Assembly: GCF_019649055.1 (NCBI RefSeq)
Contig: NW_026570503.1
Span: 1 to 64,000 of the forward strand
DNA: 64,000 nucleotides
Direction: 5' to 3'
From: Paramacrobiotus metropolitanus
Lineage: Eukaryota; Tardigrada; Eutardigrada; Parachela; Macrobiotidae
The position numbers and the translations under genes were made by a program. This document shows, in pieces, positions 14,481 through 53,018 of the stretch (positions are counted from its first letter, which is position 1; every line of letters starts with the position of its first letter). The notes beneath the pieces were generated by a model. That model was not told where the DNA came from, did not search any database, and worked only from the letters and a program-made list of their open reading frames with translations.

Positions 14481-14484
14481 AGTA

Positions 14485-15965: not shown

Positions 15966-15969
15966 GGGG

Positions 15970-16470: not shown

Positions 16471-16473
16471 TAC

Positions 16474-16936: not shown

Positions 16937-17064
16937 GATAACTGCTTCACGATTATAGCCGGTGACCGCGCCATTGCTGCTGTAACAATCCTCATTTATC
17001 ATGCCTGGGCAAATATTCGTCGGACGGTGAACCACCCTCGGCCATGTCTCTGGCTGGGCCCGCG

Positions 17065-31230: not shown

Positions 31231-32718
31231 ATGGAGACACACAGCTCTTCGCTCAACAGATCTTATATGGCAAATTATACCAACAATGAAACGGGGGAAT
31301 CGTGCGCCGAGATAAGGTAAGTCTGCGCAATTTTCCTAATTCTTTATTATAATTCCATGATTATTTACATATCAGGTAAACTGCACAAGTAAAGCAGTAC
31401 TAACAAGTAGACAGCAATGAGTAACCTCTCAGGAAGAATTTCTGATTGGTATATGTAAAAGGATATTTCCACTATTTGTCCAATATTATGCAAATTTGCT
31501 AGGTTAGTCAGGTTAGTCTTTTTTTTGCCACCATCGAACGCAATGAAGCTGCGCTTCCTGTTAGCATGCCGGTTATTGGGAATTAGCATATGCACTATCA
31601 TTTTTCACGCACTAGCATTTCTGCATACTCCCGCTATTTGCCACAAAGCGTTTCAACGCTTGAAGGTTGTATTTATCGCAATAAGATTTTGCCGTTTTTT
31701 TCCATACCAGATAGCAAATTGTTTTACATTTTTTAGCAACACAACGCTTGCTCAGCTACCATGGCTTTACCATTATATGGCCCCAATTTTGGCAGGAGGT
31801 TTGGTGTTGATTGTTTTTTTTGCTGATTTTCTGATTCGGCACTGTTCTGAAATTCAGAAACAGTTAGCAGCGTTTAAGAAGAAACAGTCCTGGTTCGTGA
31901 TTTTTCGTGGGGTTGTTGTGTTCATCGGAAACATGGTGTCTTTGGTCATAAACTTCTTCATCCCGTATTGGTACCACGACAGGTACGCTACTCGTCTGCG
32001 GGCACAGCGGTATCCAAAGCTCTTCGGTGCTTCAAAATTATTGTACAGTGGTGTGATAATAATTCAAAAAGTTATTGCGGTGTAACTTGCAGGAAAGTGA
32101 AAACCGGATGGTACGGCAAGCAGGACGATGAGTACTGGAAAATTACCTTCATGGATCTAATCATAAACAGTTTATTGTTAATCTTGCTGGTTTTAAAGAT
32201 TTTGCAGGTGTTTTTCGTTCCGAGTGCAATTTTGTTGGTTCCCAATAAAACGAGCATTTTGTTTGTTTCACAGAGTGTCACCTGCAGAAAACGTGTCGCC
32301 GGCACATCGTCGTCTTCCCTAAAGTCATGGAGAAAAACATGGGACTCGGTAAAAGCCGAAATGTCGCGATGGCTTCGAAACTGGGAGTTTGTGGTCAATG
32401 CGGTGAACGTCCTCTTGCTTATTTACGAAATCGATTATATTTTCGGTCGAAACAGAATTTCGAACTGGAACTGTTGGAATTTTACATGGCTAAGTGAGTT
32501 TTTCTTTTACTTTGCTGATGCTTGCATTTTTCCATAGAATTACGGAAAACGTTTGTGTACTTTCAGGTCTGCAGTTCTTGCGATTACTATGTATTGTATG
32601 GGCTGGCGACGAGCTGTTGGGTGTATTTACGGGTATTCCAATTGCGTATGCCATCGTCGTCAGGCGTGCAACGCGAATCGTATGTTCCTTTTTCTGTTTT
32701 GCTGCCTGGATACAGCTG
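31231..32718 (+). CDS. Slo-like gene exons 1-5: extracellular N-terminus, S0 to S5
   Basis: ATG at 31231 opens a 28-residue segment with three N-glycosylation sequons (NRS, NYT, NET), fitting the extracellular Slo N-terminus. The phase-2 join at 31316/31737 leads to S0 (YMAPILAGGLVLIVFFADF) and S1 (VIFRGVVVFIGNMVSLVINF). Exon 3 (32093-32207) carries S2 (DEYWKITFMDLIINSLLLIL). Exon 4 (32274-32493) carries S3 (WEFVVNAVNVLLLIYEIDY). The phase-1 join 32493/32567 creates WLSLQFLRLLCIVW, aligned with Slo1 WLGLRFLRALRL (S4). S5 is IVCSFFCFAAWIQL, ending at donor ctg|gttagt. All four introns here are 66-420 nt. Confidence 0.8.
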
Positions 32719-35700
32719 GTTAGTTGCTTAGACTTCGCAGTATTTCAACAAATCGTATTTTTGAGTCTTTATTCCTCGGAACGAAAGATAGAGGGACACT
32801 TTCTTGCTGCGCCAGTAAAGAAAATACTTCGAATTCCAGGCGGGGGGGGGGGGGGGGGAGGAGGAGGATGCGTGGAACAGCAGGCAGTAATGGTGACCCG
32901 TGCTCATACTAGCCCAAGTAGCCAGTGCTCTTACAGTTTACACTGACTACAACCGTTTTCGAACTTCGCTTTGACCATTTGACCATTAGAATCTCAACTC
33001 AGAAGGAAACTTTTTGCTAGGTAACTTTTGTTGCTACATTCTGCTTCCTTTCTTCTAGCTTTCTCACATTGTTTTAGTACAACCCTGCCGGGTCAAGTTG
33101 GGACAGTTGTATAAAATAAATTCTAGAAATACTTGTATTCGTCGCTTCACTTTTATCTTATAATATGTTTTGTTACCGGGCGCCGTATGGGCGCCACAGG
33201 TAGCCTCGACAGCGGAACAGCAGTGAACCCGGATAAGGCTTTGACGCCGAAATCTAATGCGCTCCGTGGCGCGGCAACACCAGACTAACAAGGAAGGATT
33301 CTGCAGCCAGTGCGACTGTGCTGCAGATCCGTCAAACAGCGCAGCAATGTGCGGGGTGGAAATCCCCAGAAACAGCGAATAGCTACTCAGGAGGGCGGAG
33401 CGTCCCGCTCTTACAGTTTAGTGTAACTTTTTATTAAAAATCCGGAACTGTCAAAACCGGTACGATTTAGCATACCGACAGCGAGCCAAGCGGTGATTTA
33501 GGGGATGGGGTGGTGGTCGGATTTGGGGCTCTTACAGCTGTCCCTCTAAAAACTTCACCGACAGATATTTTTCCCTGGGAGATTTTGCAAACTGTTGAGG
33601 GGCCCAGAAGGTGTCCGTTACAAGTTGGCAGAAAATTTGTCCTCCACCCGTGCCTGCGGTAGCCACTAAATAAGGTGTATTTCCCATAGACAGGTATGTT
33701 GTAACGCGCCTTCCCAACAATAGGATTGCCTAGCGCACAGAATGTGGTAACCTCGAATTATTATTTTTCATGGATGACCCATGGATAACATAATACGATT
33801 TTGACGGTTTTGACAGAAATATATTGCTCAAGCGGGGAGATCGTTGGGCTGAATAAGTGGAACAAAACACCGACAAAGCCAGGGATAAACGGTTGTAGCT
33901 GCTTTCCGAACAGTGGGTCCAGAATACCCCGGGCTTATTGTGCAAATAGTAAAACTTAGATTGACGCCCAGGACCTCCTGAACAAGATTTTTCAAAAACA
34001 TTTACATAAGGCACCGAACGACTGCACGGCGAGCATTCAGAGGAGGTCACTCACCAGTGTACTGGTGTCTGCACTCAAGCTGTAAAGGTCACAGACGCCT
34101 GATCGAAATGGGCAGGCACATAGACTAATTCGCAAAGAAATGGAAGGCAAGCAGTTTAAAGTTATTGCTTTTAGACCACGACATCCACAGAGCTTTTAAA
34201 CAAACTTTGAATAGGGCGAGGGTTAATAAGTTCGATGGGTCGAACAACTTATTTAAGCTAGTCTGTCCTAGTTTCTATTTCACCACAATCCAGAGAATGT
34301 TCTTAACATGGTATCCTGAAGTGCAAAAGATGTTGGACACCCACAACAGAAAACGTACATATTTGATAAGCTTTTGTTTGGTGACAGGTGGTTCATGCGA
34401 AATTTTTGAGAAAAACTGTCCCAACTTGGCTTCGCAGGGCTTTATTTATTTTTTTATTATTTCATCATATTCTCGGGTAGTCAGTTTTGCAGGCTGAAAA
34501 CTTTGTGACTTTCCCAAAAAAATGCCTATTACTATTTTTTTGAAATTGCTTTAAAAGTTTTTGCAGCAAGACTGTCTACAACAAGCATTTCTTGTGTTCT
34601 GATATACGTAGTAAAAGCAATGTCCAATCAGATACATATGCTCGCCAGATAAACTCCCGGAGCGTTGTTTATAAATTTCTTTCAAAAAGCCTGATTGAAG
34701 AATTCAGGAGAACCAAATCGACGCGCTCTCTCTTCTTCCTGTAGTCGACAAAACCTGGTCATTATGATATCGCAGTTCTTTACAGTAAGTACAAAAGACG
34801 AGAAACAACCCTCTACCAGAAACAGCAACGTGACCTACGGTCATTTAGTTTTAACAACAGCCTCTAATTAGAAATGGATAAATTCAGGTTATTCCTTTTT
34901 TCGGGTTTTTGCTTCCATCTCTTTTTTTGTTTTTGCATTTTTTTTATTTCTTACTTTGTTGCATGTGATACTGTTTGACTTACCACTAATAATAAGTTAC
35001 CAGTAAGGGATTTGGCCCGGTACACAGCAGCAAATTTCCATAAATTCGCGGAAACTTTCGCTTTCATGCACTTTCCAGACACTTTTTTGGATTATTTTTG
35101 GCATTGTGTACTCAAAAAATTTGTATACTGGTTTTCGCTTGCAACATCCGGTCGCGGAGTTATGAGGCTAAAAAAATTTGAAAAAAGTTTAAATGTATTC
35201 AGGTGTACCAAAAGTCTCATTATAGAATGTTCTCTCCTTCAAATTTACTAATTCACCACATTTTGCATGATCGTTCTTACACCGATTAACTGATATAGTC
35301 TGTTTTCCCCATTTCAAAAAGAATTTCGAAAAATTTAAAATAAATTAAAAATTTGAAAAACAAATCATGGAAATGGCTACGTGAATTACGTGCAAAATTA
35401 AAGAAAATCGGTTCTTAATAATACTTTTGATACACCTGATTGCCTTTAAACTTTTAGGAATTATGTTACCCTCATAAATCCGCCACCGGATGTAGAACGC
35501 AAAAACGCCTGTTTATACAAATTTCTGGCTTCACAATATCAGAAAGCAATCCAAAAGAGTATTCCAAAGGGCGCGAAAGCGCCCTTCGGAACAAGCGCCC
35601 CTCCAAGACACGTTCCCGTGGATGCACACAAATTTGGTCCTGTGCACACGAATTTTATTACTTTTCTTAAATAGCATCTTTAACACTGTACACATGAAAT

Positions 35701-38700
35701 TACAAGGCAGTTTCGGTGGAATGTAAGCAACATTTGTGGAAGGCGACTAGGTGAACGTATTAGCCGAAAGTAATGTGGTTGAGTGGCGGCGAAATTGTTC
35801 GGCGGCCGAAAAGATTTGCTCGTAATGAGGAAAGCCGATACCGTAGCTCGAAGTGATCGGTTGTCCTTAGGCTGTAGCCATAGGTATGTAAGATGTCAAG
35901 TGCCTGGTGGCTGAACAAAATGGCAGTGGGTCCGCTGGTCCGTCCAACACATGATGACGCTATCTTAGTTTCATTCGGAAGATCTATGTCTAACATGAAA
36001 AAGTTAAGTCAGTCAAAATTCATAAGGATAAATATTTTATGAAATGTTTTGGAAATCTGGCTGGTTTTGAACGATGCCGTGTAAGCGAAAATATGAAATT
36101 ACCCGTTTCTAATTTAAAAATTCTTGCTTTCAACTAACGACTTTAATGTATCTTGCTTTACTGTTTTGGGTAGAAGGGTTGTTTTTCGCTTTGTTACTGT
36201 AAGAAGCTGCAGTATTCTAGCTACCGTGCTTGGTCAGGACGCTGAATAACAGAGACTCCGCACGAGTAATTCTGGTGAAACCGGCAAACAGAGTTTTGGG
36301 AGCAAATTTCTAACCGACATTCTAAAAGCTTAACCGGTTCAATTTCTCAAAAGGGCAATGAACTAACAACATTTAAATGGTAAACCTGTATTTTTCGTGC
36401 AACCTGTCAAGAAGCCAAAATATTTAACGGAAAATACTTGAAAAACCTAAATAAAAAACCCGGCATTTTTGGGAAAAGTTACAATGTGTCCTGACTGCAT
36501 AACTCGTTCGGCCTATGCAGCATGTTTAACTTTTTTTTCTTAAAATAAAATGTATTACGCTTGATGAAACAGTTGGAAAAAACCCATTCAGGGAAGAAAT
36601 GGCACAAGATTTTATGTTTTACGCGCTGGGACACGAAAAATTTACACAGTTTCATTTTCATCATTGCAAACGCAGACGGCTTTATTTTTTCAGATACCTT
36701 TAAGTTTTGTACTTTAGCTAATAGAATTCTCTATCGAATAAAGTTTAACCGTTTACGATGCGACATAGGGCCTGCGAGAAACAAACCAACACAGGAGACG
36801 GCCCTTTTGTTCGGCCACCCGTTACTCGCGATATGTGCTCGCTGGTCGCTTGTGTGACCCCAGTATATTTCAAAATCCTGCGGTTATAAGTGCTTCAGAA
36901 AAAATTTAGCCCTGTTACTCTGGAAATGCAAAGACAGCAAAGTTAATTCTTACAGCTGAGTGCGTATAATCTCATTTTTGCGCTTTTAGATGGAAATAAT
37001 TGGTGACCCGTATTCTTCTGAAGGCAATGACGTACAAAGAAACCTGACTTATGGAAAGGTCGTAGCATTTCTATATGGGAAAATGGTATTAGTGGATGTA
37101 GTTTCAGTTCAGCTCGAGTCAACGTTCGCCAGAATATCCGTATATATTGTGCAAGCAGTCAACTGGGTAAGGCTGTCGTTGGAATTATTGAAAATAAGTT
37201 TGATGTTTTTCTTTTTCTTTGTTGCTAGCACTTTGTCAGCTGTGTATGAGTACAATTTTTTAGCACTTTTAAACTAACTGAGCCTTTCATCTCAATGTAC
37301 TGGATAGTTCACAGTCACACACTAGTTTTAAAGCAACAATCCAAAAATGATTGGTTTTATCACTGTTAGCACCTGTGTTAAGGGAAGTGTGCCGGTACAT
37401 CCATATTCATGTTGAGGTACTAAAATTTTCGCTTTCGCACGCTCATAAAATTAATACCATTTTGCATGGTTTATTACGTACATTCTGCAGCCAAATGATT
37501 TGTATACATGTGCGTGTAGCGCGCAACATGCGCTTGGAACGTTACTGAAGACATGAAATTCCAAAAGTTTAGATGCGAGAAGACATATGCTTCCCTACCC
37601 AATTAGGTTTCCACCATTCTTTCGAATTTCAAAATACCTTTTCAATTTAATTTTGTTTAAAGGTCAAAAATTTATGGTTTGGACCTGGTTCATGTTAAAA
37701 AGATATTCAAACCAGTGTATGTTTTCATGCAAAATTCGAAGATCATATATTGCTAACGAGACTTTCTGCTCTCTATGCTATTGACCTTTTGGAATTGTAT
37801 GTCCCCATTAATTCCCCAACCGGATGTTGCGGGCAAAAAGCCGTTTTTCACGCCCGTGTATTCAAATCATTTTCTTCCTGTACAATGTCATAAACCAATG
37901 CAAAAATTGTATTTCTGCATTGGTTTATGACATTCATCTGAAGTACGCAAAGTAAAAGTTTTCGTACATGTACACGAATTCGTTAATATATATCGGCACA
38001 CTTCCTCAAAACAATATGAATGTTTTGCAGTTTTTCATCGCACAACTTATTCCGGACATGTTCAAGAAGCTGCCGACCGTTCTGCGGATGCACTCATTTA
38101 GCAAAATTTACAGAAAAAAAGACGAAGCGTATGTACAATACAATCATGAGAGCTGCATATAGGGGGACAAACAAGTCTACTCGGCCCGGTTCCCTGTACT
38201 GCTGTCGTCACCCGCCTGGAGTATGGCGTTACGGCAATACATACGGTTAAATCAGGCGCGGTATATAAGCGCCATGTATAGCCACATCGCAAAACACCAG
38301 CCGGCTGACATCAGAAGTACAAGGGACTGGTTCGGCTAGACCCATTTTCGCCCCTCTACAGCAAACTGCATGCGATTAATTTATCAGAATCACCTTTGCT
38401 GGTTCAGGTTTGTGCTGATACTGGGATCGGTTAGTCCTACGGCTTTAGAGCACTTTGCCAAAGCCTTCCACGACTTCAACGTGGAAGGAAACATCATGGT
38501 TCTTTTAGAGTAAGCCGCCTTTACTGAGCAAATGCGCTTTTTTGTGTACCAATCTTCTTCCTAATACGGCTCGGTTTCATAGGTCCGCAGTACTATTAAG
38601 GGCAACAGAAGAGATGCACATTGTAGCACGAAAGCACAAGCGAACTTTGACCATTGTCTCTGGATCGGTGTTTAGCTACAAAGACATCGACAAAAATATC

Positions 38701-41700
38701 TCAGAAAATTGTCAGTGTGCCTTTGTCTTTGCCAACGAAAGTGCACCTAGCCCGCAAGAGGAAGATTATCACAACCACCTTAAAGTTCTCATGCTGAAAC
38801 AACACCGCCCGACACTCCGTGTAATCGTTCAAGTCCTTATGGTGAACAACAAGGTAAGGATAAGATGGTGCGATTATTGTTAATTGAGCGCGGGGGCACT
38901 ATAAAGGGTCCCCTCGGGAGAGCGCTTTCCTTCTCTTTTGCGCAACTGCGAAGGAATTTATTCAGCGCTTGGCAACCGAATTTGATTGCAGCCTTTGAAT
39001 GTAGAACAGAGAAAATGCATCACTTTATTTTGTGCCCATACGCTGGCCTTGCGCGCTCTTCTCCTCGTCTTAACCCATATTCCAAGGGACTTCAGATGTT
39101 CTACATCAGCAGGCGCTTTTACTGGCAGAGCCAGAATTATTAAGAAAAAGTTATAAGGAAATATTTTAAAATATTTGCCCTCATGCTCAGCCTGAACTGC
39201 CCTCATGCCACTTGATTAAACATTCTAATAAAAACTGTATTAACGTTATTGTATGGGAGAACCCGAACTCGAAGGGGCGAGATCCAAGAACAAGTTCCCT
39301 CTTCGAATACCCAGCAAATTAAAAAGCAACTCCCTGCTGCCATGGTGTTGGATGAGAATCAAAGACTGGAATTCAGCTTACGTTATTGGAAGCCCAAGTA
39401 CATACAGGGAATACCAAACCAGAACTTCAGAAGAATTACGAAGACACTGCTTTGGCAATGGAAACGAGCTCAACGCCAACAAAGCTTCCCAAGCGGCATC
39501 CTCCTCGGCCACAGTCGGAACAGTTCGATTAGCTCTTTCAACCCTCTTGGTTTCGATCGACCGTAGCGACGCCTGAAAGGGTGTTGAACCTCGAAGGTTT
39601 TCATCTTCTGGATGACACGCATGTCACAGGCATAAAGGTTTACGGATCCGGCAGGATGGTTTACGTATCGTAAACAGTTAACCCGTCCTTTCTGCCGACT
39701 ACACACGCACACTGGCACACACCAAGGAAATCGCCAGAAATCAAAGCGGTCCCTCCGTGCTTCGATAATACCGCAACCCTCTCTCCACCCCACACAAATT
39801 CGTCGAATGCTCCGGACTCCTGGCAAACTCCTGGCCATGTGAGATTTCAGACAAAACATGCTGATGCTGCCTCGTGACCGGTGCCGGAACTACTCCCCGG
39901 AACTAAATTTTTCCACTCATATTGTGCTCTGCCTGCTCCGCTACAAAGAATAAGCAGACGATCTCGCTCGCCAGCTGGAAGCGCTCCTTTTCTGTGCACA
40001 TGCTGCACCGCACGCATGCATCCGACAGGAGGATTGACGGGTTGTTGGTTGACGCTCAATGAAGATCATCAACCTTTCTGTCAAAGGTCATCAACCTTTT
40101 CCTAGAGACCATTTATTTTTTCGACAAACTTTTCTCTAAAGGCCATCGGCCTTTCTAGAAAGGCCGTCAATTTCTTTTGTAAAGGTCGTTCCTTAATTTT
40201 GCAAGTACTAATTAGATGAAGCCCCACACAAAAGTTTCCTGTCCGAGATATCAGTCAAGAGCGATAAAAACGATTAGAATAAAGGTCGACTGAGATTTCT
40301 TCCGAAGACCCATTAAGTTGTTACTAGTATCTTATTGCAGCTTATCTTAGTTTCACACTTTCAGCAACATTTAAAAATATTCGCATTCGCAACCGGCAGA
40401 AAGGTGGATCGGTGGATGGTGGATGTTCAATGATATTGCATCCACCAATCTGCCGAGCCAACCCGTCGGTGTCAAATGGCCTAGCGATGACACCATTGAG
40501 AGCATTTAGGCTCATTGTGACAATAAATGCACGCCGCCACTGACTCGGCAAAAAACTGGATGCGATTATGTACAAGCTTTTCTGGTAATTTCTATCGTAA
40601 AGCTACAGCTAGCGCGAAATTTGCGCTTAAAACGATGGCCACGACACTACGCTTATCGGATCGCCTAAATGCGCTTCGCAGTCAGATTGGCCATTACTAC
40701 ACCGACCGTTTTTTTAGCCACCTTCCGTCAGGCAGTTACTGTTATTCTCATTGAATTACTATCTGGCGTGCTCCAACCCACCTTCCAGCCAGTTGCAAGT
40801 TACGTATTCAAGAGTGTGGCGTGGCGCGTCGTAGCATGGAGTTTGGCGTAAAACGCAAATTTGTGTACAGTATTTCGCTGTATTGAACCGGCAGAAATTG
40901 CCGGACAAGCTTGTACAGTATGTATATTTATCGCTCTGCCTCAATGCCATCCTTTTTTAATCTTCCCAGTAAGTAATTTATTTTAATATATAATAGAGAC
41001 CTAGAGGTAGACGAGAAGCGAATCAAGTCACGGTGAAAATCAGCTGACTGTCTCCATAGCATATTGCCTTTTTTTTGTGCACGTCTTGATAAAACCTCAT
41101 GCCCAACATTGTAAAAGGTAGAGAAAACTTTTAGAAGCTTTTGGGTACCGAATATATGCCGCTGGAAGCATACAACGTGAATCAGAGTCATTGCTTATGA
41201 TAGGTTCTCTGCGTAGCATCCAAATTGTGTTTTTCTGTATTCAAAATGCCTTGATTTACGTCATCAGCAGCCAACAGTAGTTTATTGGGTACCAGAAAAC
41301 TTCTGAAAGACTTTCTTTCCACTTTTTGGAATGTTGATCGGAGGTTTTACAGAGACGTTAACGAGAGAAAAAAAACTGGCGTTTAACGCACGAGTCTATG
41401 GAGACAGCCACAATTTCCTCCATACCTCCACAATTTCTCAAAGGAATATTTCAGCGGAGAGACGAAAAATGTTGGATGACATGCCGACAGAGTGCCTTTT
41501 TTGCCGGATCACTAACGGCGTGCACTGACTGTCACAATGAATCTGAATGGGCTGAGTGGTGGCACTGATAGATCAAGTGACACCGACGGGTTGGCTCGGC
41601 AGATTGGTAGATGCGATTTCATTTAAAAACTCGCCAATCCAGCTTTCTGCAGGTTAAGCACCCAAATATTTTTAAATATTTCTTTAAAGAAAGGTTGTTG

Positions 41701-44700
41701 ACCTTTAGAGAAATGTTGAGAAGAAAGTTTTATGGCCTTTAACAGAAAGGTTGATGACCTTCATTGAACGTCAAGACCGTCAACCTTTCTGCCGGCTACA
41801 CACGCATACGAAACCGGAACTACTTTTGCCACTGCTCAAATACTTCGACCTAATTTCGCTGAGATGACAGATCCGGCTCGCGGCTTTAAATTGGAGCGCT
41901 TATTGGAATACGATATCGAGTTCCGTAACTCTGCCGCACAGTTGCCCGACGAGCCGCTAACTCTACATAGGAGCGGCCGCACCAGGTGCAATCGCTGTCA
42001 CAGAATCGGCCACATCGCTACGGACTGCCAGGAGCAGCGTAACTCGCAAGGATAACCATCGGAAACCACGAACGTCTGCCGCAAGTTCAGCCGTGGATTC
42101 TGCTTAATGACCTGCGTCAACGGCCGCAGGCATGCACGTGGCTCCAGCAGTCACGGCAAATGCAGCCACAGCAGAATCAGCAAGCCGCAAGAGGTCTACC
42201 CACGAAGTGACGCCGCCACCGAAGCCTAACTTCCGTCTCGACCAACACGCCTGTTTCTAACTGTCGCTCACGCAATAACTAAACATCGCGGACCGTAACC
42301 GGTTCCAGAAGCATGCTGGCTCCGCTGTCTGGGTTTTCAGAAGCAGGGAAATGGAACCGGTAAGAGCGCACGCACCGGTTGTGCTGCCGGAGCTCCTCTG
42401 CTCTCTAGCCGAGAACTTCCACATGCCCTTATGGCCTTATCTCTCCCCGCTTTGCCATTTGTACGAGTAGCTTGCACATTACCTAAAAATAGACGGAAAA
42501 AATCACATGCGCTGTACAAGAAATGCTATAATATTTTTCCAATAAAACTATGCCCTGTACTTGGCTTTTACAGGATCTGTTTTATGACATTCCCAACTGG
42601 AGAACCGAGCTGGATGGTACCAATGTCACTGCACCAGACAGAGCAATCTGCATTCCCGAAATACAGTTTGCTCTATTGGCACAACGGAATTTTGCTCCCG
42701 CATTAACTAACGTTGTGCACGACTGGTTCAACCCATCAGGATACCAAACAATTCGATCTTATTTCATAAAGCTCGTCGAACCGACCAAACCAGCCATTTC
42801 AAAACAAACCAGCAGTTTGACAACCGCAACCAAAAAGAATGAACATGTGGTTGTGATCATTGATCATTCTGCTTCCAGTAGTCATAACGCGATAGAAATG
42901 CAACCTCTTTCATCCACTCCAGCCGAAAACCCAGCAATCAATGAGGCACTTGTGCACAGGTCAACTGCAGTCGCTGCAAGCGATGGCGCTATGGCAGGTG
43001 GATCAGGGCTCCAGGCCCCGTCTGGGAACAAGAGTGGTGATTGTAGCTTGAGCAATTCAGCGAACAATGAAAGTTCTGAGACGCAACTGCTTCTACCACC
43101 TAGCGACACTTCCAAAGCTGACACCAATGCTCCTTCAAGAGAAAGCAGCAATTTGACAAGCACTGATACTTCAGGGAGTCAGCGAACTAGCGCCGCTTCC
43201 AAAAACGATGTCATCTACCAAGATATACAGGTATCCTAAAGAGCGTGCTGGTATTGTAATTCATACTGCCTCGGTGTCAATAAACTACGTCTATATTTCA
43301 GGAAATTTTTACCGAACTAAAGATTGGTACTCCGTTCGCATTACTACAAGAAGGGCAATATCATTTGTGTCCACGAGAAAATCTGATTCTCCAAACTGGA
43401 ACCCAGGTGTTTTGTGTTACGGATAACTGTGTAAAGCAATTCATCCACTGGCCCGCCAACTCCAACTGTAAAAGAGTATCGATTACGCCATTCTGTCCGA
43501 TAGAACGACAAGCTATCAACAAAAGGACGATTGGAGTTGAACTGTCGTAAGTCACGCTGTGCAGACATTATTCCGATTTTTACAATTGTCTCTTGTGTGA
43601 TTCAGGAAGGTTGGAAAAGAGGAAATATGCGATATTACGGGACAATATCAGCTAAGATCAACGGATTCGGACATAACGTATCTAGTTAGTGAAAATTCAA
43701 ATGGATTTTGCTTTGCCATTAACTTTTCAGTAATTATCGGTATTTTTGACGAATAAATTTCTCTGCAATAGGACCCGGACACAAATAACGAAAATCTAAA
43801 AAGCATTTGTGGCGACCATATCGTAATATGCGTCGTATCGGATGGAACCCCTTCTCCTATTGGGTTAATCAGCTTTATCAAACCTCTACGAGCTGCTCCC
43901 ATCGCAATTACAACAATTATAGTTTTGGCCGACGAAAACTTTTTGAACTTAGAAGCACCCTCAATGAAGAAGTTTCCTGACGTGCTTTTCGTAAAGGTAA
44001 GGTACTACAGAGGTTCGCATGTTCTGTGCTAAGTCGGATGACAATTTCTGGTTTGGCCCACAATTTAAAGGCGGCAGTTACTGTAGCGGCTCGATAAAGG
44101 GGCACCACAAAGTTGGTGTACGGGAAAACAGCATACACGCAGCGTGTGCTGCTCAGGCGTTCGCAAAAACGAGCAGTGCACACTTTGCAAATGCTGATTT
44201 CCCGTACACAAACTCTTTGATGCCACTTGATCGAGCCGCTACAGTATAACTTCTGGTTTTCGCTGCCCCGCCAAACGTTTTAACTAGAGCGTTTTAAAAA
44301 ATATTGTACCACAGCATGCGGACTGCGCAATTTTCCAGCACACTGCATCCATAAATCAACTTGGATTTTGCAGAACACGAGGCGGTATTCTAGCTCTGGC
44401 AATCAGTATAACCTTATGCGACAGCCGCGAACGGAAAAACGTGACGCGACTGCGCGTTAGGAGAATATTTATTCAATATATTCTGATTTTCAACACGAAT
44501 TCTGGATTCTGAAAACACAGCTTACCGTATTTTTCGAATTATAAGCCCTGGGCTTCTAAATTTTCGAAGGTGCCCGGGGTGAGGCTTATACGACAGAGGA
44601 GGCTTATATTGCGGAGGAGGCTTTTAAATTTTCGAAGCATTTAAACTAGCGTTATTGCTATACACCGTATATGGAGGGAGGCTTCTAATGCGGAGGAGGC

Positions 44701-47700
44701 TACTAAATTTTCGAACTAAAGTGGGGGGAGGCTTATATGATAGAGGAGGTTTCAATTTTGGAGGAGGCGTTAATTTCGAAAAATACGGTACTTGTTTACG
44801 TTAGTGTCGATAATGATTGCAAGACTAATAGTCTTGCAATCATTATCGACACAAACTACAGGTTTCACGAAACCTTCATGAAGCGTACCGCTTACTGCAT
44901 AGACACAGCAGCTGGCCTCTCCCATTAGCACTTGGTCGACTCTACCGACTGACGCGACATGTCATGCAAGAAAACCTCTTTTGAGATTGAATGAAATGGC
45001 ATATTTCGGGGTCATAATTTTTTTCATACCTAGTATTACTACTTACGGTTTTAGCAGATTCATGCAAAACATTTGGCTTTAGAATGAGATGAAGCAACTG
45101 ATCACATAATCCAATGTTTCAAGCGCGCGCAAGCAAAATTTGCAGGGGATTCAGATTAAACTGGAAGCAGTTATCGAATTTACCCTTTGAAACCATAACC
45201 ATGTGTTTCAGAAATCTCGGTTGTGAGGTGTGTTAGATAGTTCAGTCCCTCACTATGTAGCGCATATTCATTCTTTTCAGATTAGAGCTACTGACACTGT
45301 TTTCTTATGCTGCGTGCCACGGGACAGTTCTAATTAACGTCTTCCGAGCTTTTGCTCCCTGGAAACAACTGCAGCTTCAAGGTGCGTTTTATAAGAAGTG
45401 GTTGCAGCACACCGCACGTAAAGAGATTAACAGCGGATTTAAAGAAGAGATGGGCAAAAATTAATGTATTGCGGTGGTATCACGGTGCACAACTTTCGCT
45501 AGAGGCATCTCTCGTGAACTTACGAGTATTAGGCCTTTTCCCGTCTTTTCTTCCTCAGTGTTGTTATCGCTGGTATTGTGCTTTTCTCGCGGGGTTTACC
45601 TAAACAGACTCTGAATCTTCGCTTGCTACTACCAACAACAGATTTCAGGTGTTTAGAAATTTGTGAAATTTGGGAGGAATTATTTTCTGTGTTGGCTCAA
45701 CTTGGCGGAAACATTCTCCGTAGTGTGTGGCGCAGATGAGCTGGGGACCCGAGCATTCCTGAACAGTGAACATGTATACGGAAAATAGATTAAAACACTA
45801 TCTCTGTTGAAGTCTGTTCGGCAAACAATTTTGTTTCACATACCGTATTCCGTAAAATCCGCTATCAACGCCCTGGGCTTTTATTTTTTCGAGAGCTTCG
45901 GGAGTGGCGCTTAAAACCCTTAGGGGCGTTTATTGCGGATGAGCGTCTAATGTACTTATAAGGTAGCGCGCGTTTAACCGGAGCGGGGAACCGTGTGCAT
46001 ATTTAAATGAATAACTCGCTCACGTTATTTTACCTTTAACAAGAGTAATGTGCATGAAGATTACTGGAATAATTTAGTAGCCAAGATTTTTGTTAGGAAA
46101 TTCAAAATCATGACTTGTGAACAAGGGAAATATAACTAAATTAGCCCTATGCACAATTAAGACAGTCCCGACAACAGACTAAAAAACGCGACGTCGCAAC
46201 TTATTAGGCGCCCGGGCGATAATTTCGGGGGAGGGGGGCGGTTTACGGTAAATTAAGAAAAGTTTGGCGCTTGGGTGTGCCTTTAAAAAAGAAATCCCAA
46301 TTAAAATCATTTTTATGAGATTATATTGGATAAAGTTTCAAATTCAATCTTAGCGATCTTGAGCAATAGGCTAAGTCTACCCAAGGCAGCCGTTGAATTC
46401 CCACGGACTACCGCTAGACCTAAACGTTGCCTTGAAAAGGCCGTAGAACACGGATCCCTGGTGACTTCTTCGATCTTTCTGCTGACTGTTTCGGGCACAC
46501 TTAACGCACGACTTAAGATCGCTAGTAACTGTCACGATTTTGGATTGAAATTTTTGATCATTTAAAATTTTTTAAATCTAAAGCTTTTAATTGATATGAA
46601 TCTGCACACTTGAGTTCTTATGTGCACTGGCTGATAACGCTTAAAGAAAATTTAGTCCTATAAGAAATGACGTTACGTCTGTACAAAAACCCGTCGTCAT
46701 TTTTTTCTGCCCAACATTGGGTGATCTCTGCGGACTGCGGGCTGTAAAGTTTTTAGACAAAAATTTCTGGCTATGATTTTGGTTGCGATTTTGATTTGGT
46801 TACGATCGAACACCCTGCAGTTTTGTTTTGATGATCACTCGGCTCATTCGCATCTTGACCTTTTGTCAGAATGCGCTCTTGCTGCAGTCAGTAGTCTTTG
46901 TCGAAGTGGCACGGCCTGCCAAAGGCCATTTAAGCAAAGGTGTTAGATAATTAAAAGGAAACCCACTGATTCTATGGCCATCGTTTTGTTTTCCAGAATT
47001 CGCTGACCGATTCATTGCTGCAATTCACTACTCGCTCAACGGTATATCAATTACCGCCATTTAGCGTTTTGGCGCATTCGCTGACCAACGTTCTTCTGGC
47101 ACCGACTCGTTAGCCTTTACGGCTGGAGAGCTTAACAGCGTCTACTGGATTCATTAATCAGAGATAACAAAAAAAGAAGGTGGGCAGTGTTTAGAAGTGT
47201 TCGTCGGAAATATGATGTCGTTCAACAATTTGTCGTTTAAGCAAGACGCCGGTAAACATTTTGTCGGTCAGTGCAGATACAGAGTTGTGGGCAAAATATT
47301 GGTCCCCAATATAGTTAGGCTGTTTACCGGAATCGCTTGATGCACCGGACAGCAGAATTCATGGCAGATACCACTTTAAACGGGCAGAAGGTTAATTCCT
47401 TTGGATATTCCTGCCGATTATGTGTACAGCAAAATGGGCAACGGCAACTGCCGGGCCAGGCACAGAAAAAAAAACAAAAAAATGCTGCGTGGGTATCGGT
47501 AGAGTGGTGACCAGATTCGATTTAATTATACCTCGCCTACGGCCGCGTTACATTTTTACCCGGTATACGTTCACTTCGGCAGACAGACTAGCCCGATTAA
47601 GTCTGTGTGGAATGAGCAAAGGCAAAAAAATGCAAATGGCCCAAGTGATCGGTAGCCAAGTGTCACTTAGCTTTACATGTGTAACCAGCTTGTACTCTCT

Positions 47701-50700
47701 GTCTGCTGCACTGTTAACCCTATAGAACCGAACGTATCTCAGAGACGATTCTACCCGAACATGGGTCAATTGACCCAGGCACATCAATTGGCGATTTTGT
47801 CAGACAGATTTGCTTACGTAACCACATTGTTGATCGGTTGCGGATCTGATTTTTTTCTTCCCTAGAACAGCAATGTATTACAGCCGTAAAAATTTTGAGT
47901 GATAGTATACATCTTTCTGCTTGAGTGGGAATTATTTCATGTTCTTTGACTGAATGGTAAAGATATGTTCAAACATTTTGCAACCGGATGAACGTTAAAT
48001 CTGGGTCGCCACGACCCAGCGTAATCATACTGAACCAAATTTTTTTTCAAAAAATTAAACGGTCTAAATGTTGCCAGAAATGATACAGAAGAACAGCCCT
48101 TATGAATATCCCAATGCGTTGCCAACAAGAAACGATATCTAATGGTTTTACCAGTGCGTGGATCACCATGACCCACGCCGGTTCTACAGGGTTAAACGCA
48201 TTTTTGAATCGCTAACTTTTAGCTATTCTGAGAATAATATACTGGTATGGCACTCCGCCAGCCAGAGTGGGTTCTGCCGTCTAACGATCTCGTTTGCGGG
48301 AGATCTTACGTGAGATGTTTCTCATAACTTCGGCCAAAGCAATTTCTTTCAGATAGCTGAGGCAGTGCTTTTCTATTACAGGGTACTCCGTTTGATGACA
48401 GCCACCTCGCTGCTGTTAAGGTGGCATTGGCCAGATCCTGCATCGTCATCGACGCAAACGAGCCGCCAAGCGAACATTTGGACAGCTCCCATTCAGCCGG
48501 CGATGCTGTTTTTTCGACATTATCACAACATTTCTGCCGGCACCGCAACGCTGTTCGAGCAACCTCTGCTGTGACCGAGTTTGTTAAAAAGCACTGGGAA
48601 ACGACAATCAGCTTGACAAACGAACTTAAAATCGCTATAAACGAAATCAACTCTGGGAGGAACCGCAGCTCCACGTCACATATAAGCTACCGTGAGCCAA
48701 TTGAACCTTCGTTAAAGCACAATCTGCTGGAATTTCGCCGACGGGATGGCGAATATGCTAAAAAGGCTGTCAAAGAAGTAGGTGACATAATCAGCAAGTT
48801 GGACGGAAATCACGAGCGCGTTATAAGGTTCTTCAAAATACTGTACCAGACAGACGGCCGCGTATTCGAAGCGGAAGATTCAGTCATAAAAGCAAAAGAA
48901 GATTTGACCAGGATTTTTGAAACTGTTAAGGGCAAAGGAAATCCGGTCAATGATTTTCCAAAACCGGAAGATGTTACAAAAATCCTGAAAAGGTTTTCCG
49001 AAGCGAACACTGGGTTTCTTAAAACAATCACGTTGCGATTTCCCGCTTTGAAGACGGAAACTTCGACACTGCAAAGCCGGAATTTTGACAAAGGAGTCAA
49101 GCTTAACGATTTCCTACCAGTTTCTGAAATTCGCGATTATTTTTTCAATGCTGCAAGGAAACTTTTAGAACCTCGTACGTCTGACTCAGCGGGAGATGGC
49201 AAAACTGATGATGTAATTGAAAAGTATCAACAAGAAGCCGACAATATTCTGTTGAACTTCTGTGGAGAGCTCCTTAAAAACAACGAGCAGTTACTGGGAA
49301 ATCATAAAACTGATATTAAGCTAATTCTTCGAACGTTCCATTTAACGTGCGACCTTTCGCCAGATCCGGCTGCCATTATCATAAAAGAACTTGTACGGTT
49401 GATTGAAGGATTCGGAAACGGCTTACAAACAGAAACTGCCAACAAAGTCGAAAGAGCTCTCAAAATGTTTCGAGAAGACTGTAACAATTCATTAACTGAA
49501 TTCATGCACCGTACTGCAAAGGCGCTGGAACACGAGAATCCCGAAAAGTTTGAAAAGAACACGAGAGAGGATATTATATTAACAATCCTGAAAGCTTTTC
49601 GACAATCCGTTACTTCACCCAAAGAAATCCTCACTTGCATGAGTAAAGGAATAACTAGCGCGACTTTTAAGAAAGGACTTGAATTTCTTGAATTTTAGTT
49701 ATGGAAGTATCACAGTAGTTGATATGGTGTGTTTTGATTTGGAAAGTTACAAATCTGCTACATTAACGTCTAAAATGTTGGATTCGCTGAATTTTTATTA
49801 GCTACTGACTTACATAATTTCACGTTAGTGATGATATTGCGAATTTTATGTAGATCACGAAGCTGCAGGTCGGATATCGTGGAGCAATGATATAATAGGA
49901 AACCCGAAAGTGACTGCGAAATACACCACTCCTAATTTTATCAACGCGATGATGATAAGATGTTATGAAGACACGGAAGTATTTGACATTGTTCGTCTGC
50001 TATTAACTGGAGGCTATCAGAACACGTTCGAAGAGAACTGGAGTAAGGATATCTCAGGCTGCCAGTATACTGGAAATCAAGCCGTAATAAGCCAAATGGA
50101 TTGCGCATTCAGCAAAGATGGTAGAGTACGTGGGTTTTTTAAACCCAACACGGAAATCCCTTCAGAGCTTTACAGTGCAACGGACAGTGCACTAAATATT
50201 TTACCATGTTCTAAAGACCGTATTCCGGCAACCTGTGACCAGCCGACAACGAGCACCAGCATTCAACCTGGACATTCATACATATATACACACGACATAG
50301 ATGCAGCTGTAGACGCTACTGTTCAAAATGATGACGCGCAATCACGGACAGGGATCCAGCTGCCTATAGTTAACACCGACTCGTTTGATGACTTTTGTAA
50401 AAGTGCTACGAAAGCAGGATACACTGTTCTTGGAGCTGAATTTCCGGTGAGCAAAACAACAAAAATGGAAGATATACCAAAGGACTGCTGTTTAGTTATC
50501 TTGGAGAGGCCTTGGTACGTTAAAGCGCGCCAGCAGCTGATCCAAGCAGTGATGCAGTGGGTTGATAAACATGAACCGGATCAGCAAACCAATCAGCAAA
50601 CCAAGTAATGCGACTCCGCATTCAGTCGCTTGTGATTTTGATTCCTACAAAGGTTGTTCTTTTAGGTGGCTAAAATTTTACGAGGCATTTCCTTCTTATA

Positions 50701-53018
50701 TCCTCACCTTCACTGAAAATAATATACGGCGTAAATTAAACAGCCAATCTCTGGAACAAGACATTCCTGCGACCAATAAGCCACCAAAATGGATCCGCGC
50801 GTATTATGGCATCATGCAGGACTTGTACAGCAATAGCGAAAAAACAAAAATCACGGTATGAAAACGTCTTTGCGTCGAAAAGTTTGTGCTACATTGTATT
50901 AAAGGCCAGCTGCACATCAAAGGCAACCCAGTTAGAGTGGGTATCAGATTCTGAGCGAATCTAGTTATGATTTAGCAACCCCACCTCACGAGGAGGCTTT
51001 GCGTACGGTACAGGTAGGCGTGGCCACTGCATCGTGCCCACTCCGCACCCGGACAATTGGGAGTGTGACATTTCGCCGCACTCAAACTCGACGCGCGACT
51101 TTTCGCCGCGAAGACATTTCGCCGCCGGACCTTCGGACGCTGGGACACTTCGGTTTGGGACATTATGCTTTGAGACGTTTTACCTTTGCGAAATTTCGGC
51201 GCAAGACATCTGGTTGCGGAAAATTCGTCCTGGGACAATTCGAACGATGCGACTTATCGCCGCAAAGTAATTCACCGCGTTTAATTCTTACTACTTTTTC
51301 AGTTTTTTAAGCTTGTTCTAAGTTTTTCTTTGGCTTTCTTAGTCTTTCTTAGGTCTTCTTGTGCTTTTTTAGATGTTCTAAGATTTATTAGGTTTCTTAG
51401 GTTTCTTGGTTTTCTTAGATTTCTAGGCTTCTTAGCTTTCTAAAGTTTCTTAGGTGTCTTAGGTTTTTAGGTTTCTTGGGTTTCTTAGGTTGTTTGCTTG
51501 ATTTTGTTTTTTTATTGTTCCCTATACTGACTCTTGGAGTTAGCTTAGTAAATTATTTAGCGGTTAGTCGAAATGTCGCGTCGTCGAGATATCCTTGCGG
51601 CGAATCTCCTTGCGTCGAAACGTCCATGCGACGGAAAGTCCCGGGGCGTAAAGTCCTACCGACGGAATGTCCTGCGACGAAACGTCGCGAGGCGAAATGG
51701 CCTTGCGGCGAAATGTCTGCGACCGAAAGTCCTGCGACCAGTTGTCCGCGGCGAAATGTCGCGGTGCCAGCCCACTCGTGCGATTGAGCAGCCGTACCAT
51801 AGCGAGATGCGCTATGAATCATAGACCCACCCAAACAAAGTCCTGCTGTACTGCGGTTGTCACTACCTTGTGATGACCTGTCATGGCTCCCGATCGCTTC
51901 GGCTGTTTCTATTTTGGCTTTGCTCATTTCGGCCAAATTTTCGGTCGCCCTTTACTTCGGCCGCCGTTCACCTCGGACACGCTGCATTTCGGCTTTGCAC
52001 TTGTTTTTCCTAATTTTCACCGAAATCACGTATCTTATAATTTGATATTTGGATTTTTTTTAAACACGATTTTTTAAAAAAGTTTTTCTGTTTTTAAGTT
52101 TCAGCCTAAGGGCAACCTCACTGATAACAGCATCAACCGAGGCCCTAGCCGGTTAAGGTGTGACTTCAGTCGACAGATTCTGGCGCCTAAAAGTCTGCAC
52201 CTGTTATGACTAAATTAAGAAACCCAAAACAATAATGAACTTGTAAAATCAAAGAAAAAATAAGAAAGCGTAAGCGTAAGCTACTGCCACGCTGCAAAAT
52301 TCAGAAATTTTGCGCCCGTGCGAGCGTGCGCCGGTTTTGGGCACATATTTAATTCAAAAGTTGGCCCTAGGAGGGGTAGGCTAGGGCCAGTGCGCCTATA
52401 CCCTTCCTACGGCCCGGATTCTAGCCAACTAAGACAGTAGGCGCAGCAAATCCAGGGAACACCAGAACTTGTGCCGGAGGGAGAGTGCAATTACTCGTTT
52501 GTGAAGTAAGATGTGCCATACTGAAAATAAAGTTAAGTTGAATACTGCAATGTCGTCTCCAGAGTTAAATATGGCGGAAGCCTATCAGTATGTCTCAAAC
52601 GGTGCGGTAATGGTACACTGCACGACTCTTCAGGAGCCCAGCTCCTTTTGAGCCAGCAGCTACAGTATTTCCAATTCTGTTTAATTGATGGGACATATTT
52701 TTGATTTTACAGTATAATCGCGCAACATGGGAGCAATTTGACTTTGACGCCATCCCGTCCACAAGTGGCATGGCGTCGGCAACATACAAGAACCAGCATT
52801 TAAAAAAGCTGCCGATTGCTGTCCTGGATTTTATTGCATCCATTTACCCTAATAACCCTATGGAAGTCCTAATAAATCAGCAACAAGCGAGCGGCGTATA
52901 CGCACGTTACGAAGGGCACATACCAGTCGGAACGTACTTTTACGAGTGTACCAAAACCCCAAACGAACGTGAAGTGACTTGGATCAATTTAAGCGCGTTG
53001 TGTGGTGTGCTGTGGTAG
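31231..53018 (+). CDS. Slo-type (BK-like) potassium-channel relative, 17 exons, about 1,749 residues
   Basis: Exons: 31231-31316, 31737-31982, 32093-32207, 32274-32493, 32567-32718, 36990-37166, 38031-38132, 38388-38509, 38583-38853, 42574-43230, 43302-43546, 43606-43729, 43772-43996, 48382-49642, 49854-50604, 50666-50855, 52713-53018. Every junction is GT/AG, all phases agree, and the total is 5,250 nt. The order matches Slo1: glycosylatable N-terminus, S0, S1-S6, RCK1, linker, RCK2, tail. Known Slo channels are tetramers opened by voltage and intracellular Ca2+. Here the selectivity filter is lost (LVDVV at residues 307-311), S4 is nearly uncharged (LQFLRLLCIVW), there is no aspartate-rich calcium bowl, and exon 14 has a large insert. 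The protein is about 1.5 times the usual length. It may be a silent or regulatory subunit, or an altered pore. AATAAA lies 184 nt after the stop. Confidence 0.83.
33078..34440. mobile_element. Tc1/mariner-like element, non-autonomous
   Basis: The ends are inverted: the left reads ccctgccgggtcaagttggg followed by acagtt, and the right reads aactgtcccaacttggcttc followed by gcaggg. The 'caagttgggacag' core is typical of Tc1/mariner ends, and the element lies next to TA dinucleotides. The 1.36-kb interior has no transposase frame with a DDE/D signature, so it is a deletion derivative or MITE inside Slo-like intron 5. Confidence 0.6.
35005..35660. repeat. Foldback repeat element
   Basis: The left arm (about 35005-35230) begins aagggatttggcccggtaca and includes actttcgctttc and gcaacatccggt. 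The right arm (about 35440-35650) holds the reverse complements (for example ccaccggatgt and cccgtggatgcaca). It belongs to the same family as the elements at 2.63, 37.38 and 57.30 kb. Confidence 0.65.
36990..38132 (+). CDS. Slo-like gene exons 6-7: pore helix, altered filter, S6
   Basis: Exon 6 (36990-37166) reads MEIIGDPYSSEG...LTYGKVVAFLYGKM, matching Slo1 GDPW...LTYWECVYLL in the turret and pore helix. An ungapped alignment then puts LVDVV (37089-37103) where Slo1 has TVGYG, and STFARI opposite TTLGRL. Exon 7 (38031-38132) continues S6 as FFIAQLIPDMFKKLP, matching Slo1 MFASYVPEIIELI, and ends KKDEAY at donor tat|gtacaa. The frame is intact on both sides, so the filter change is not a frameshift artefact. 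Confidence 0.8.
37380..38006. repeat. Foldback repeat element with central hairpin, Slo-like intron 6
   Basis: The ends are inverted: ggaagtgtgccggta on the left (from 37383) and atcggcacacttcc on the right (ending 38005). Internal blocks (tttcgcacgctc; gcgcaacatgcg) recur inverted. Near the right side, 17-nt perfect arms tgtcataaaccaatgca (37886-37902) and their complement (37916-37932) form a hairpin. It fills most of the 864-nt intron and ends 25 nt before exon 7. Confidence 0.7.
38388..38853 (+). CDS. Slo-like gene exons 8-9: RCK1 domain
   Basis: Exon 8 (38388-38509) begins after 'tttatcag' with NHLCWFRFVLILGSVSPT, aligned with Slo1 HIVVCGHIT, and TALEHFAKAFHDFNVEG. Exon 9 (38583-38853) gives AVLLRATEEM, LTIVSGSVFSYKDI, CAFVFANESA (Slo1 ACLVLANKY), and a helix and strand ending PTLRVIVQVLMVNNK (Slo1 IRVIIQLMQYHNK). 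It ends in phase 0 at aag|gtaagg. The Rossmann-like alternation is preserved, but the Slo1 Ca2+/Mg2+-site residues cannot be judged by eye. Confidence 0.82.
38854..42573 (+). other. Slo-like gene intron 9 (3.7 kb) with nested retroelement-like debris
   Basis: Phase-0 intron between the RCK1 exons. Inverted blocks occur at 40020-40100 and 41690-41800 (the atcaacctttctg word and its complement), and at 40430-40560 and 41515-41630 (accaatctgccgagccaacc and its complement). This suggests a large palindromic insertion. A gag-like zinc knuckle lies at 41864-42055. Overlapping frames at 39249-39576 have no motifs. Confidence 0.5.
41864..42055 (+). pseudogene. Gag-like CCHC zinc-knuckle fragment
   Basis: The short frame ends with CNRCHRIGHIATDC, which fits the C-x2-C-x4-H-x4-C zinc knuckle of retroelement nucleocapsid proteins, after a helical segment (LERLLEYDIEF) and an RSGR linker. 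It stops at a TAA 11 residues later. No protease, RT or integrase motif is nearby. It is probably a gag remnant of a retrotransposon inside Slo-like intron 9. A cellular zinc-knuckle protein is a less likely alternative. Confidence 0.5.
42574..43996 (+). CDS. Slo-like gene exons 10-13: end of RCK1, linker, start of RCK2
   Basis: Exon 10 (42574-43230) starts DLFYDIPNW and RAICIPEIQFALLAQRNFAP, matching Slo1 LLNIPSW and [20 protein letters not shown]. It then carries a low-complexity Ser/Thr/Asn linker of about 150 residues. Exon 11 (43302-43546) has LKIGTPFALLQEGQYHLCP and NLILQTGTQVFCVTD, like Slo1 NPxNHxxLQEGTxGFFIA. Exon 12 is 43606-43729. Exon 13 (43772-43996) holds GDHIVICVVSDG and PIGLISFIKPLRAAP, matching Slo1 GHVVVCIFGD and LIGLRNLVMPLRAS, and ends FPDVLFVK. 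Confidence 0.85.
44076..44250. repeat. Small MITE with tactgtagcggctcga ends
   Basis: The left end gttactgtagcggctcgat and right end atcgagccgctacagtataac-type sequence are inverted, and matching continues inward (gtgtacggg against cccgtacac). It is about 175 bp with no coding capacity. Confidence 0.65.
44523..44790. repeat. MITE with TACCGTATTTTTCG terminal inverted repeats
   Basis: It starts taccgtatttttcgaatta and ends taatttcgaaaaatacggta. Inside, gaggaggctt and ctaaattttcg recur several times. It is 268 bp, non-coding and lies within Slo-like intron 13. The element at 45841-46250 has related but diverged ends. Confidence 0.75.
44803..44851. repeat. 49-nt perfect hairpin
   Basis: Two 24-nt arms beginning gtgtcgataatgattgc and ending with its complement are exact reverse complements around a single a. 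It is adjacent to the MITE ending at 44790. Such perfection implies a recent origin or active maintenance. Confidence 0.8.
45841..46250. repeat. Diverged MITE with TACCGTA ends
   Basis: The left end is taccgtattccgtaaaatcc and the right end is ggcggtttacggta. The interior shares gccctgggctt and gcggatga words with the 44.5-kb element. The terminal match is short (7-9 nt), so the boundaries are approximate. Confidence 0.5.
47718..48191. mobile_element. piggyBac-type MITE with TTAA target-site duplication
   Basis: The sequence reads TTAA-CCCTATAGAACCG at 47714-47730 and CGGTTCTACAGGG-TTAA at 48179-48195. This means 13-bp terminal inverted repeats with two mismatches, flanked on both sides by TTAA. 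CCC/GGG termini plus a TTAA duplication are the hallmark of piggyBac elements. Subterminal gggtcaattgaccca-like palindromes occur near 47763 and gggtcgccacgaccc near 48002. The 474-bp interior has no transposase. Confidence 0.8.
48382..49642 (+). CDS. Slo-like gene exon 14: RCK2 continuation plus large helical insert
   Basis: The acceptor 'ctattacag' joins FVK to GTPFDDSHLAAVKVALARSC and IVIDANE, matching Slo1 [20 protein letters not shown] and VILSANQ. After about 50 residues the sequence becomes a long lysine- and glutamate-rich helical stretch (roughly residues 965-1330) with heptad-like spacing. I do not recognise it in any Slo protein. No aspartate cluster equivalent to the calcium bowl appears. 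A phase-1 donor (catga|gtaaag) at 49642 precedes the frame's stop at 49696-49698. Splicing there gives a phase match to exon 15. Confidence 0.72.
49854..53018 (+). CDS. Slo-like gene exons 15-17: RCK2 end and C-terminal extension
   Basis: Exon 15 (49854-50604; a second phase-compatible acceptor is at 49868) contains FINAMMIRCYEDTEVFDIVRL and LLTGG, matching Slo1 NDNILTLIRTLVTGG. Later DDFCKSATKAGYTVLGAEF and DIPKDCCLVILER match Slo1 LFCKALKTYNMLCFGIY and VPTDLIFCLMQ. Donor ccaa|gtaatg avoids the stop just downstream and joins in phase 2 to exon 16 (50666-50855), then exon 17 (52713-53018), ending at TAG. Exons 16-17 add about 165 residues with no family I recognise. Alternatively the protein ends at the TAA at 50606-50608, and exons 16-17 belong to a separate small gene. 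Confidence 0.68.
50856..52712 (+). other. Slo-like gene intron 16 with mirror minisatellite
   Basis: Phase-0 intron between exons 16 and 17. It carries the 51.04-51.78 kb mirror minisatellite and a ttcggc-rich tract at about 51890-52000. Long frames on both strands (50972-51310, 51476-51936) come from these GC-rich repeats and are not genes. Confidence 0.55.
51040..51780. repeat. Mirror-image minisatellite: inverted 16-bp arms around a (cttaggttt)n core
   Basis: The left part (51070-51260) repeats gacatttcgccgcaag-type units. The right part (51565-51775) repeats the exact complement, cttgcggcgaaatgtc. Between them, about 51300-51495 is a degenerate 9-bp array cttaggttt/ttcttagg, the reverse complement of the 17.15-kb core. 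The two loci share architecture and core but have different arm units. Confidence 0.75.

Follow-up and report, generated by a model that had tools for sequence, protein, structure and literature searches.

Structure and Surroundings of the Slo-Like Locus

The DNA analysed here, a 64,000-nucleotide stretch of Paramacrobiotus metropolitanus contig NW_026570503.1 referred to as the window, carries a Slo-like gene on its plus strand at positions 31,231–53,018. Splice sites and reading phases gave a model of 17 exons with a coding length of 5226 nt, stop codon included. The 17 exons with consistent phases described in the initial annotation were thus reproduced, with GT/AG sites throughout, and the open frame it had given as 5250 nt was revised to 5226 nt. 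The top database protein match was LOC129601833 of P. metropolitanus (96% identity over query residues 1–1000), which corresponds to the RefSeq model for this same gene (protein P0001, 1058 aa). Both models are concordant across the pore and RCK1; the RefSeq protein translates the 66-nt intron 3 (32,208–32,273) as coding, stops exon 12 fifteen residues short of our model, and leaves exon 14 early, terminating in a different frame. Because of this early departure, the remainder of exon 14 and exons 15–17 rest on their likeness to the paralogue models P0004, P0005, and P0007, compared by eye.

Exon 1 (31,231–31,316) contains the start ATG and encodes residues identical to those of P0001. It is followed by exon 2 (31,737–31,982), encoding the N-terminal transmembrane region with S0/S1 assigned from position, exon 3 (32,093–32,207), which RefSeq extends through the adjoining intron, and exon 4 (32,274–32,493), whose position suggests the voltage-sensor region; exons 2 and 4 are also present in the RefSeq model. 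Exon 5 (32,567–32,718) encodes S4 (QFLRLLC) and S5, in agreement with RefSeq and the phmmer alignment. Its end was set at 32,718 because the C-terminal part of S5 would otherwise be missing; this yields QLMEIIGDP versus HLVENSGDP of Slo1, and RefSeq has the same end. The pore exon is exon 6 (36,990–37,166), placed by alignments and splice edges and comprising the GDP turret, the pore helix, a replaced filter, and the initial part of S6, which ends in exon 7 (38,031–38,128; LIPDMFKK) according to the phmmer alignment and paralogue comparison. RCK1 begins in exon 8 (38,408–38,509; splice model and alignment), continues in exon 9 (38,583–38,853; alignment and genome search with Slo-like_RCK), and ends, followed by a linker, in exon 10 (42,574–43,230; splice model and alignment). 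Exons 11 (43,302–43,546; also in RefSeq) and 12 (43,606–43,729) lead to exon 13 (43,772–43,996), assigned to RCK2 by alignment and Pfam (Slo-like_RCK). Exon 14 (48,382–49,642) encodes further RCK2 sequence and a long insert, found by eye at the same place in P0004, P0005, and P0007 and missing from P0002; a Pfam search of this insert returned no match. Exon 15 (49,854–50,604) corresponds, by eye, to the calcium-bowl region of Slo1, and exon 16 (50,666–50,855) precedes exon 17 (52,713–53,018), which includes the stop codon and encodes a C-terminus resembling that of P0004 by eye.

Intron 9 harbors long imperfect inverted repeats at 40,049–41,774, with arms of 130, 51, 50, and 36 nt that are 78–88% complementary, constituting a foldback-type element, and in intron 16, at 51,040–51,780, short phrases such as aaatgtcgcggcgaa recur as a degenerate repeat (by eye). 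Upstream of the Slo-like gene lies a protein kinase cluster on the minus strand (11,395–27,078), where six of ten scanned ORFs matched PF00069, some over a partial domain. A reverse transcriptase ORF (RVT_1, 104.6 bits), LINE-like and on the opposite strand to the kinase ORFs, is located at 14,458–15,465 on the plus strand.

Homology to Slo1/BK Channels

Sequence comparison indicates that the window gene is Slo1/BK-derived. The encoded protein matched the human Slo1 chain 7yo2 with a best E-value of 4.8e-31 (phmmer), and 27 distinct Slo1 chain sequences in the PDB were matched at E up to 0.001, in two stretches extending from S4 to RCK1 and over RCK2. A profile of seven family members matched the BK channel chain 9di8 with an E-value of 5e-53; S0–S3 gave no significant match even with this profile, being too divergent. 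Among the HMMs proposed in the initial annotation, Slo-like_RCK was found in the window protein (Pfam, 77.6 bits), and neither BK_channel_a nor Ion_trans_2 was matched by it in a Pfam search at E up to 10. The pore-exon boundaries (AG before, GT after) are identical in the eight closest genes, the window gene included, and in the canonical genes L012, L013, and L014. An AlphaFold2 prediction of P0001 from seven sequences reached a mean pLDDT of 43.9, with residues 255–395 below 50, so that its pore model is unusable; the highest pLDDT blocks of this poor model fall in the RCK parts.

Replacement of the Selectivity Filter

The K+ filter depends on backbone carbonyls positioned by TVGYG. At this position the window gene encodes LVDVV (37,089–37,103, plus strand), as originally annotated; the motif lies mid-exon, and the exon edges are AG/GT. 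The gapless correspondence of the pore exon to Slo1 was likewise recovered, both in the phmmer alignment and in that of the seven-member profile to 9di8. In the former, the window-gene pore sequence aligned with human Slo1 reads LTYGKVVAFLYGKMVLVDVVSVQLESTFAR. Residues T287–G291 of Slo1 face LVDVV, with Asp (codon 37,095–37,097) at G289, the first filter glycine (numbering counted on the aligned chain). Comparison of pore exons across the family delimits the replaced-filter motif as YGKMVLVDVVS (37,074–37,106, plus strand). Since the threonine and both glycines of the filter are lost, a K+-selective pore is very unlikely, and we consider that the protein is very probably made and does not form one. 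An alternative pore exon containing TVGYG, the case that would contradict the initial annotation, was rejected for the window, since a regular-expression search of its six frames found no TVGYG-like motif. No such exon was detected around the pores of the seven closest paralogues (L029–L035) either, in stretches of 2.7–3.0 kb screened for open stretches of at least 25 residues.

Other channel residues are altered as well. R207, R210, R213, E324, the glycine pair of S6, and D367 have functional roles in Slo1 gating or conduction. Throughout the window clade, which comprises eight genes (the window gene plus its seven closest paralogues), the positions of R207/R210/R213 are occupied by Gln/Arg/Cys (six genes by exon, P0006 and P0007 by protein), the E324 position by Lys, and the S6 glycine pair is absent, P320 of S6 and an acidic residue at E321 being retained. 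The position of D367, which we take to be the Ca2+-site Asp of RCK1 and which appears mutated in chain 7yo2, is Asn by profile alignment and, by eye, in all eight genes; single-sequence alignment of the window gene places Phe there, and the residue is non-acidic under either alignment. No acidic run was seen by eye in the calcium-bowl counterpart in exon 15, a region read outside any tool alignment. With two of three S4 arginines gone and a non-acidic residue at the RCK1 Ca2+-site position, classical gating looks altered in these genes, as judged from aligned residues.

Slo-Type Pore Exons in the P. metropolitanus Genome

The genome of P. metropolitanus has been reported as 170 Mbp (PMC11191345), a paper that also documents RNA-seq for the species, and the assembly searched here comprised 169.8 Mb in 533 contigs. 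Profile searches yielded 25 matches to BK_channel_a (E up to 0.001), 76 to Ion_trans_2, and 95 to Slo-like_RCK (the last two at E up to 10, with some matches scoring under the cut-off); since exons are counted singly, these totals are not gene numbers. Slo-type pore exons were read at 28 places, namely 27 of 28 selected genome stretches and the window gene. The remaining stretch (L019) had no pore exon and was excluded, L036 was counted as Slo-type from a partial pore exon alone, and at L024 and the C107 loci, where an intron lies at or just 5′ of the filter, two exon pieces were combined for reading. All family counts are lower bounds, as further matches exist beyond the stretches read, among them some on C14 near 1.12 Mb and on C18. 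Contig C107 carries at 80–135 kb a canonical Slo-type cluster with an intron just before STVG[YF]G, unlike L009–L016.

A canonical TVGYG/TVGFG filter was present in 14 of the 28 pore exons, 13 by direct match to TVG[YF]G (L009–L016, L018, L020–L022, and L036) and L024 by joining two exon pieces. This includes a second, canonical Slo1-like gene, as sought by the initial annotation: L013, located elsewhere in the genome, groups with human Slo1 (support 96/92 in the RCK1 tree and 84/81 in the pore plus RCK1 tree) and is by sequence the strongest candidate for this animal's ordinary Slo1. Half-changed filters occurred in 2 of the 28, TIGGS in L017 (G000:C3:422500-432000) and TIGSP in L023 (G000:C14:1303000-1312500); these genes grouped together on the pore plus RCK1 tree (97/98) and may be non-selective channels.

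The other 12 pore exons, including that of the window gene, share the motif YG[KR]xxxxD, or more fully Y-G-[KR]-x-[VT]-x-x-D-[LV], in which Asp occupies the first filter glycine position. Both this Asp and the Lys/Arg five residues before it are kept in all 12 of these genes (hereafter D genes). A replacement common to at least 12 genes with both residues invariant points to a new type of pore loop rather than to a loss in one gene. Eight D genes form the window clade (the window gene, L029–L032 on C105, L033 on C103, L034 on C46, and L035 on C295), with the loop FLYGK[LM]V[FLY][LV]D[VL], and four form a second subclade (L025 on C120 and L026–L028 on C11), with the loop YGR[LIV]T[LW][LI]DLSG. 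BK_channel_a scored above cut-off at all four loci of the second subclade and also, with 28.7 bits, at the L035 locus; protein P0007 fell short of the cut-off at 24.6 bits. The three second-subclade genes readable at the position of D367 (L025, L027, and L028) all retain Asp. Given this residue and the matches to BK_channel_a, the second subclade looks, by sequence, like an intermediate stage. Protein searches for relatives outside P. metropolitanus, which needed shared five-residue words, in part scored the best 8000 candidates, and were of limited sensitivity, found none among the matches listed.

Constraint on the New Pore Loop

Conservation was compared over 203 columns of the pore exon, S6 end, and RCK1 that were read in all eight window-clade genes, RCK2 and the insert lying outside this count. 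Invariant columns numbered 57 of 203. The stretch V-x-F-L-Y-G-K-x-V-x-x-D had eight invariant columns out of 12, a level seen in 1 of the 152 contiguous windows, and was the most conserved among the columns compared; as the 12-column window was chosen after the data were seen, the simple probability of 0.005 is only a guide. Codons vary for all eight invariant residues of the motif. Silent and replacing codon differences, summed over non-independent pairs, were 166:47 in the motif, where most changes are silent; the remainder of the pore exon gave 448:473 and RCK1 769:989.

The window gene compared with L033, its nearest paralogue, gave a dN/dS of about 0.20 over 207 codons (0.09–0.19 in the pore exon and 0.25–0.33 in RCK1), distinct from the value near 1 expected had the initial annotation been wrong about retention, the comparison being one of paralogues within a single genome. 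The pair L029 and L030 gave 0.09–0.14 (pore, 0.07–0.08) and the canonical pair L011 and L015 gave 0.13–0.20 over 74 RCK1 codons. Twelve pairs were tried, those with saturated dS or method failure being excluded, and the ratios are approximate because several dS values were near or above 1. These sequence comparisons indicate that the new pore loop is being retained, not decaying. The earlier proposal of a retained protein that lacks the canonical K+ filter is accordingly supported and strengthened by the open frame, the dN/dS of about 0.2, and the shared motif.

Origin of the Motif

The D motif probably arose once, judging from the trees. When the motif columns were removed, the 12 D genes occupied one side of a branch in the tree of pore exon plus RCK1 (99/95), and they did so as well in a pore-only tree (100/100), flagged for its few columns (32). 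The RCK1-only tree, flagged for long branches, split them into two unjoined groups (100/99 and 96/95) and counts weakly against a single origin; constraining the subclades together on RCK1 was not rejected (p-AU 0.284). The case for one origin thus comes from the pore exon. A tree constrained to unite the TIG pair (L017 and L023) with the D genes was neither rejected nor favoured (p-AU 0.144). L020 and L036, which had no RCK1 match and were not entered in the pore plus RCK1 tree, appear in neither tree, L016 is outside the RCK1-only tree, and L019 is outside the pore plus RCK1 tree. A YNGQ turret was considered as a mark of the D genes and rejected; since it also occurs in L017, it does not speak for their forming a group.

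Possible Functions of the Window Protein

Our leading interpretation, to which we assign a probability of roughly 0.45, draws on analogy with the plant channel CASTOR. The protein would still assemble as a Slo-like tetramer, whose pore loops would set a ring of four Asp into the filter region; this ring would pass cations other than K+ (Ca2+ or a mixture), and the RCK ring would open the pore. The retained fold, the gating-ring homology, the kept loop, and the CASTOR precedent place such an Asp-ring cation pore first and a regulatory partner second, with homology to Slo1 across the pore as well as RCK1 and RCK2. Conduction is most strongly opposed by two features, the invariant Lys/Arg of the loop and the Lys at the E324 position, whose positive charges lie close to the route that cations would be expected to take and could block it. 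The loss of the S6 glycine pair in the window clade and the splitting of the D subclades in the RCK1-only tree also tell against an Asp-ring pore, as read from the sequences.

It is possible, and we say so tentatively, that the protein is instead a non-conducting regulatory subunit that assembles with canonical Slo subunits, or with proteins of its own type, to modulate or silence them, the loop serving folding and assembly, perhaps through a Lys/Arg–Asp salt bridge. The genome offers 14 canonical Slo-type pore exons as a source of partners, [KR] and D are retained together in all 12 genes, and R207, R213, E324, the S6 glycine pair, and the RCK1 Asp are changed while the fold persists. However, 12 divergent copies are many for a silent subunit, the loop is more conserved than the other columns compared, and divergence from canonical Slo makes the putative co-assembly uncertain. 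A sealed pore in a non-channel sensor or scaffold, with the long exon 14 insert as its working part, would fit the presence of that insert in P0004, P0005, and P0007 (by eye) and the location of the highest-pLDDT blocks of the poor P0001 model in the RCK parts; we regard it as improbable, given that conservation peaks in the pore loop among the columns compared (RCK2 and the insert lie outside this count) and that P0002 has no insert. Highly improbable is a decaying pseudogene or splice artefact whose true transcript has another pore exon or none: the RefSeq model does end early at 1058 aa and the 17-exon transcript is predicted, yet 5226 nt are open, no frame of the window has a TVGYG-like motif, the same exon is found in seven close paralogues, and dN/dS is about 0.2.

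For the Asp-ring cation pore, a broader and rather unlikely extension would be that a tardigrade lineage converted a Slo K+ channel once into an RCK-gated Asp-ring class passing Ca2+ or mixed cations, an independent counterpart of CASTOR expanded to at least 12 genes.

Relation to Known Channel Systems

Few motifs in biology are as conserved as the K+ filter, and we know of no animal member of the Slo family without it. Among the matches listed in a literature search mostly without subscription journals, no earlier paper described a filter replacement in a Slo-family protein. In P. metropolitanus the substitute sequence is conserved in its own right, and one genome contains intact filters alongside half-changed and fully replaced ones, so that how a K+ pore changes its ion can be tested by swapping a single exon. 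There is also a connection with desiccation: Hypsibius and Ramazzottius are reported to have a duplicated calcium-activated K+ channel, one that has been implicated in anhydrobiotic signalling (PMC5531438).

Compared with Slo1/BK (KCNMA1, slowpoke), the window gene shares the homology of S4–S6, RCK1, and RCK2, the gapless pore exon, its boundaries, and P320. In contrast, it has LVDVV instead of the TVG[YF]G signature, a long RCK2 insert, and, by eye, no acidic run in the calcium-bowl region, and R207, R213, E324, and the RCK1 Ca2+-site Asp are changed throughout its clade. Nav and CatSper channels have acidic-ring filters (TLESWS and TxDxW), which may resemble the new loop in placing an acidic residue two positions after that of the TVGYG threonine; unlike in these channels, the spacing from filter to S6 in the window gene is that of Slo1, as the gapless alignment indicates. 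CNG channels have a K+-channel fold in which a filter change accompanies lost K+ selectivity. Bacterial NaK is described as non-selective with the filter TVGDGN (PMC9822992). CNG and NaK keep TxG, whereas the window gene has lost the threonine and both glycines; L017 (TIGGS) and L023 (TIGSP) look more like this class than the D genes do.

The closest parallel is provided by the plant RCK gating-ring channels CASTOR/POLLUX/DMI1, which are without TVGYG and have an Asp in the predicted filter (PMC6697748). The predicted CASTOR filter is AD265S(A)GNHA, Ca2+ selectivity was measured, and D265N abolished the current; the authors suspect, rather than conclude, that D265 takes part in selectivity (PMC6697748). 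An Asp in a non-TVGYG filter region alongside RCK domains is likewise found in all 12 D genes, as in CASTOR/DMI1. The loops themselves differ, AD(S/A)GNHA in CASTOR versus FLDVTS, LVDVVS, LLDLSG, and similar in the D genes, and whereas CASTOR is a plant channel of measured Ca2+ selectivity, the tardigrade genes are known from sequence; the likeness between the loops is one of analogy.
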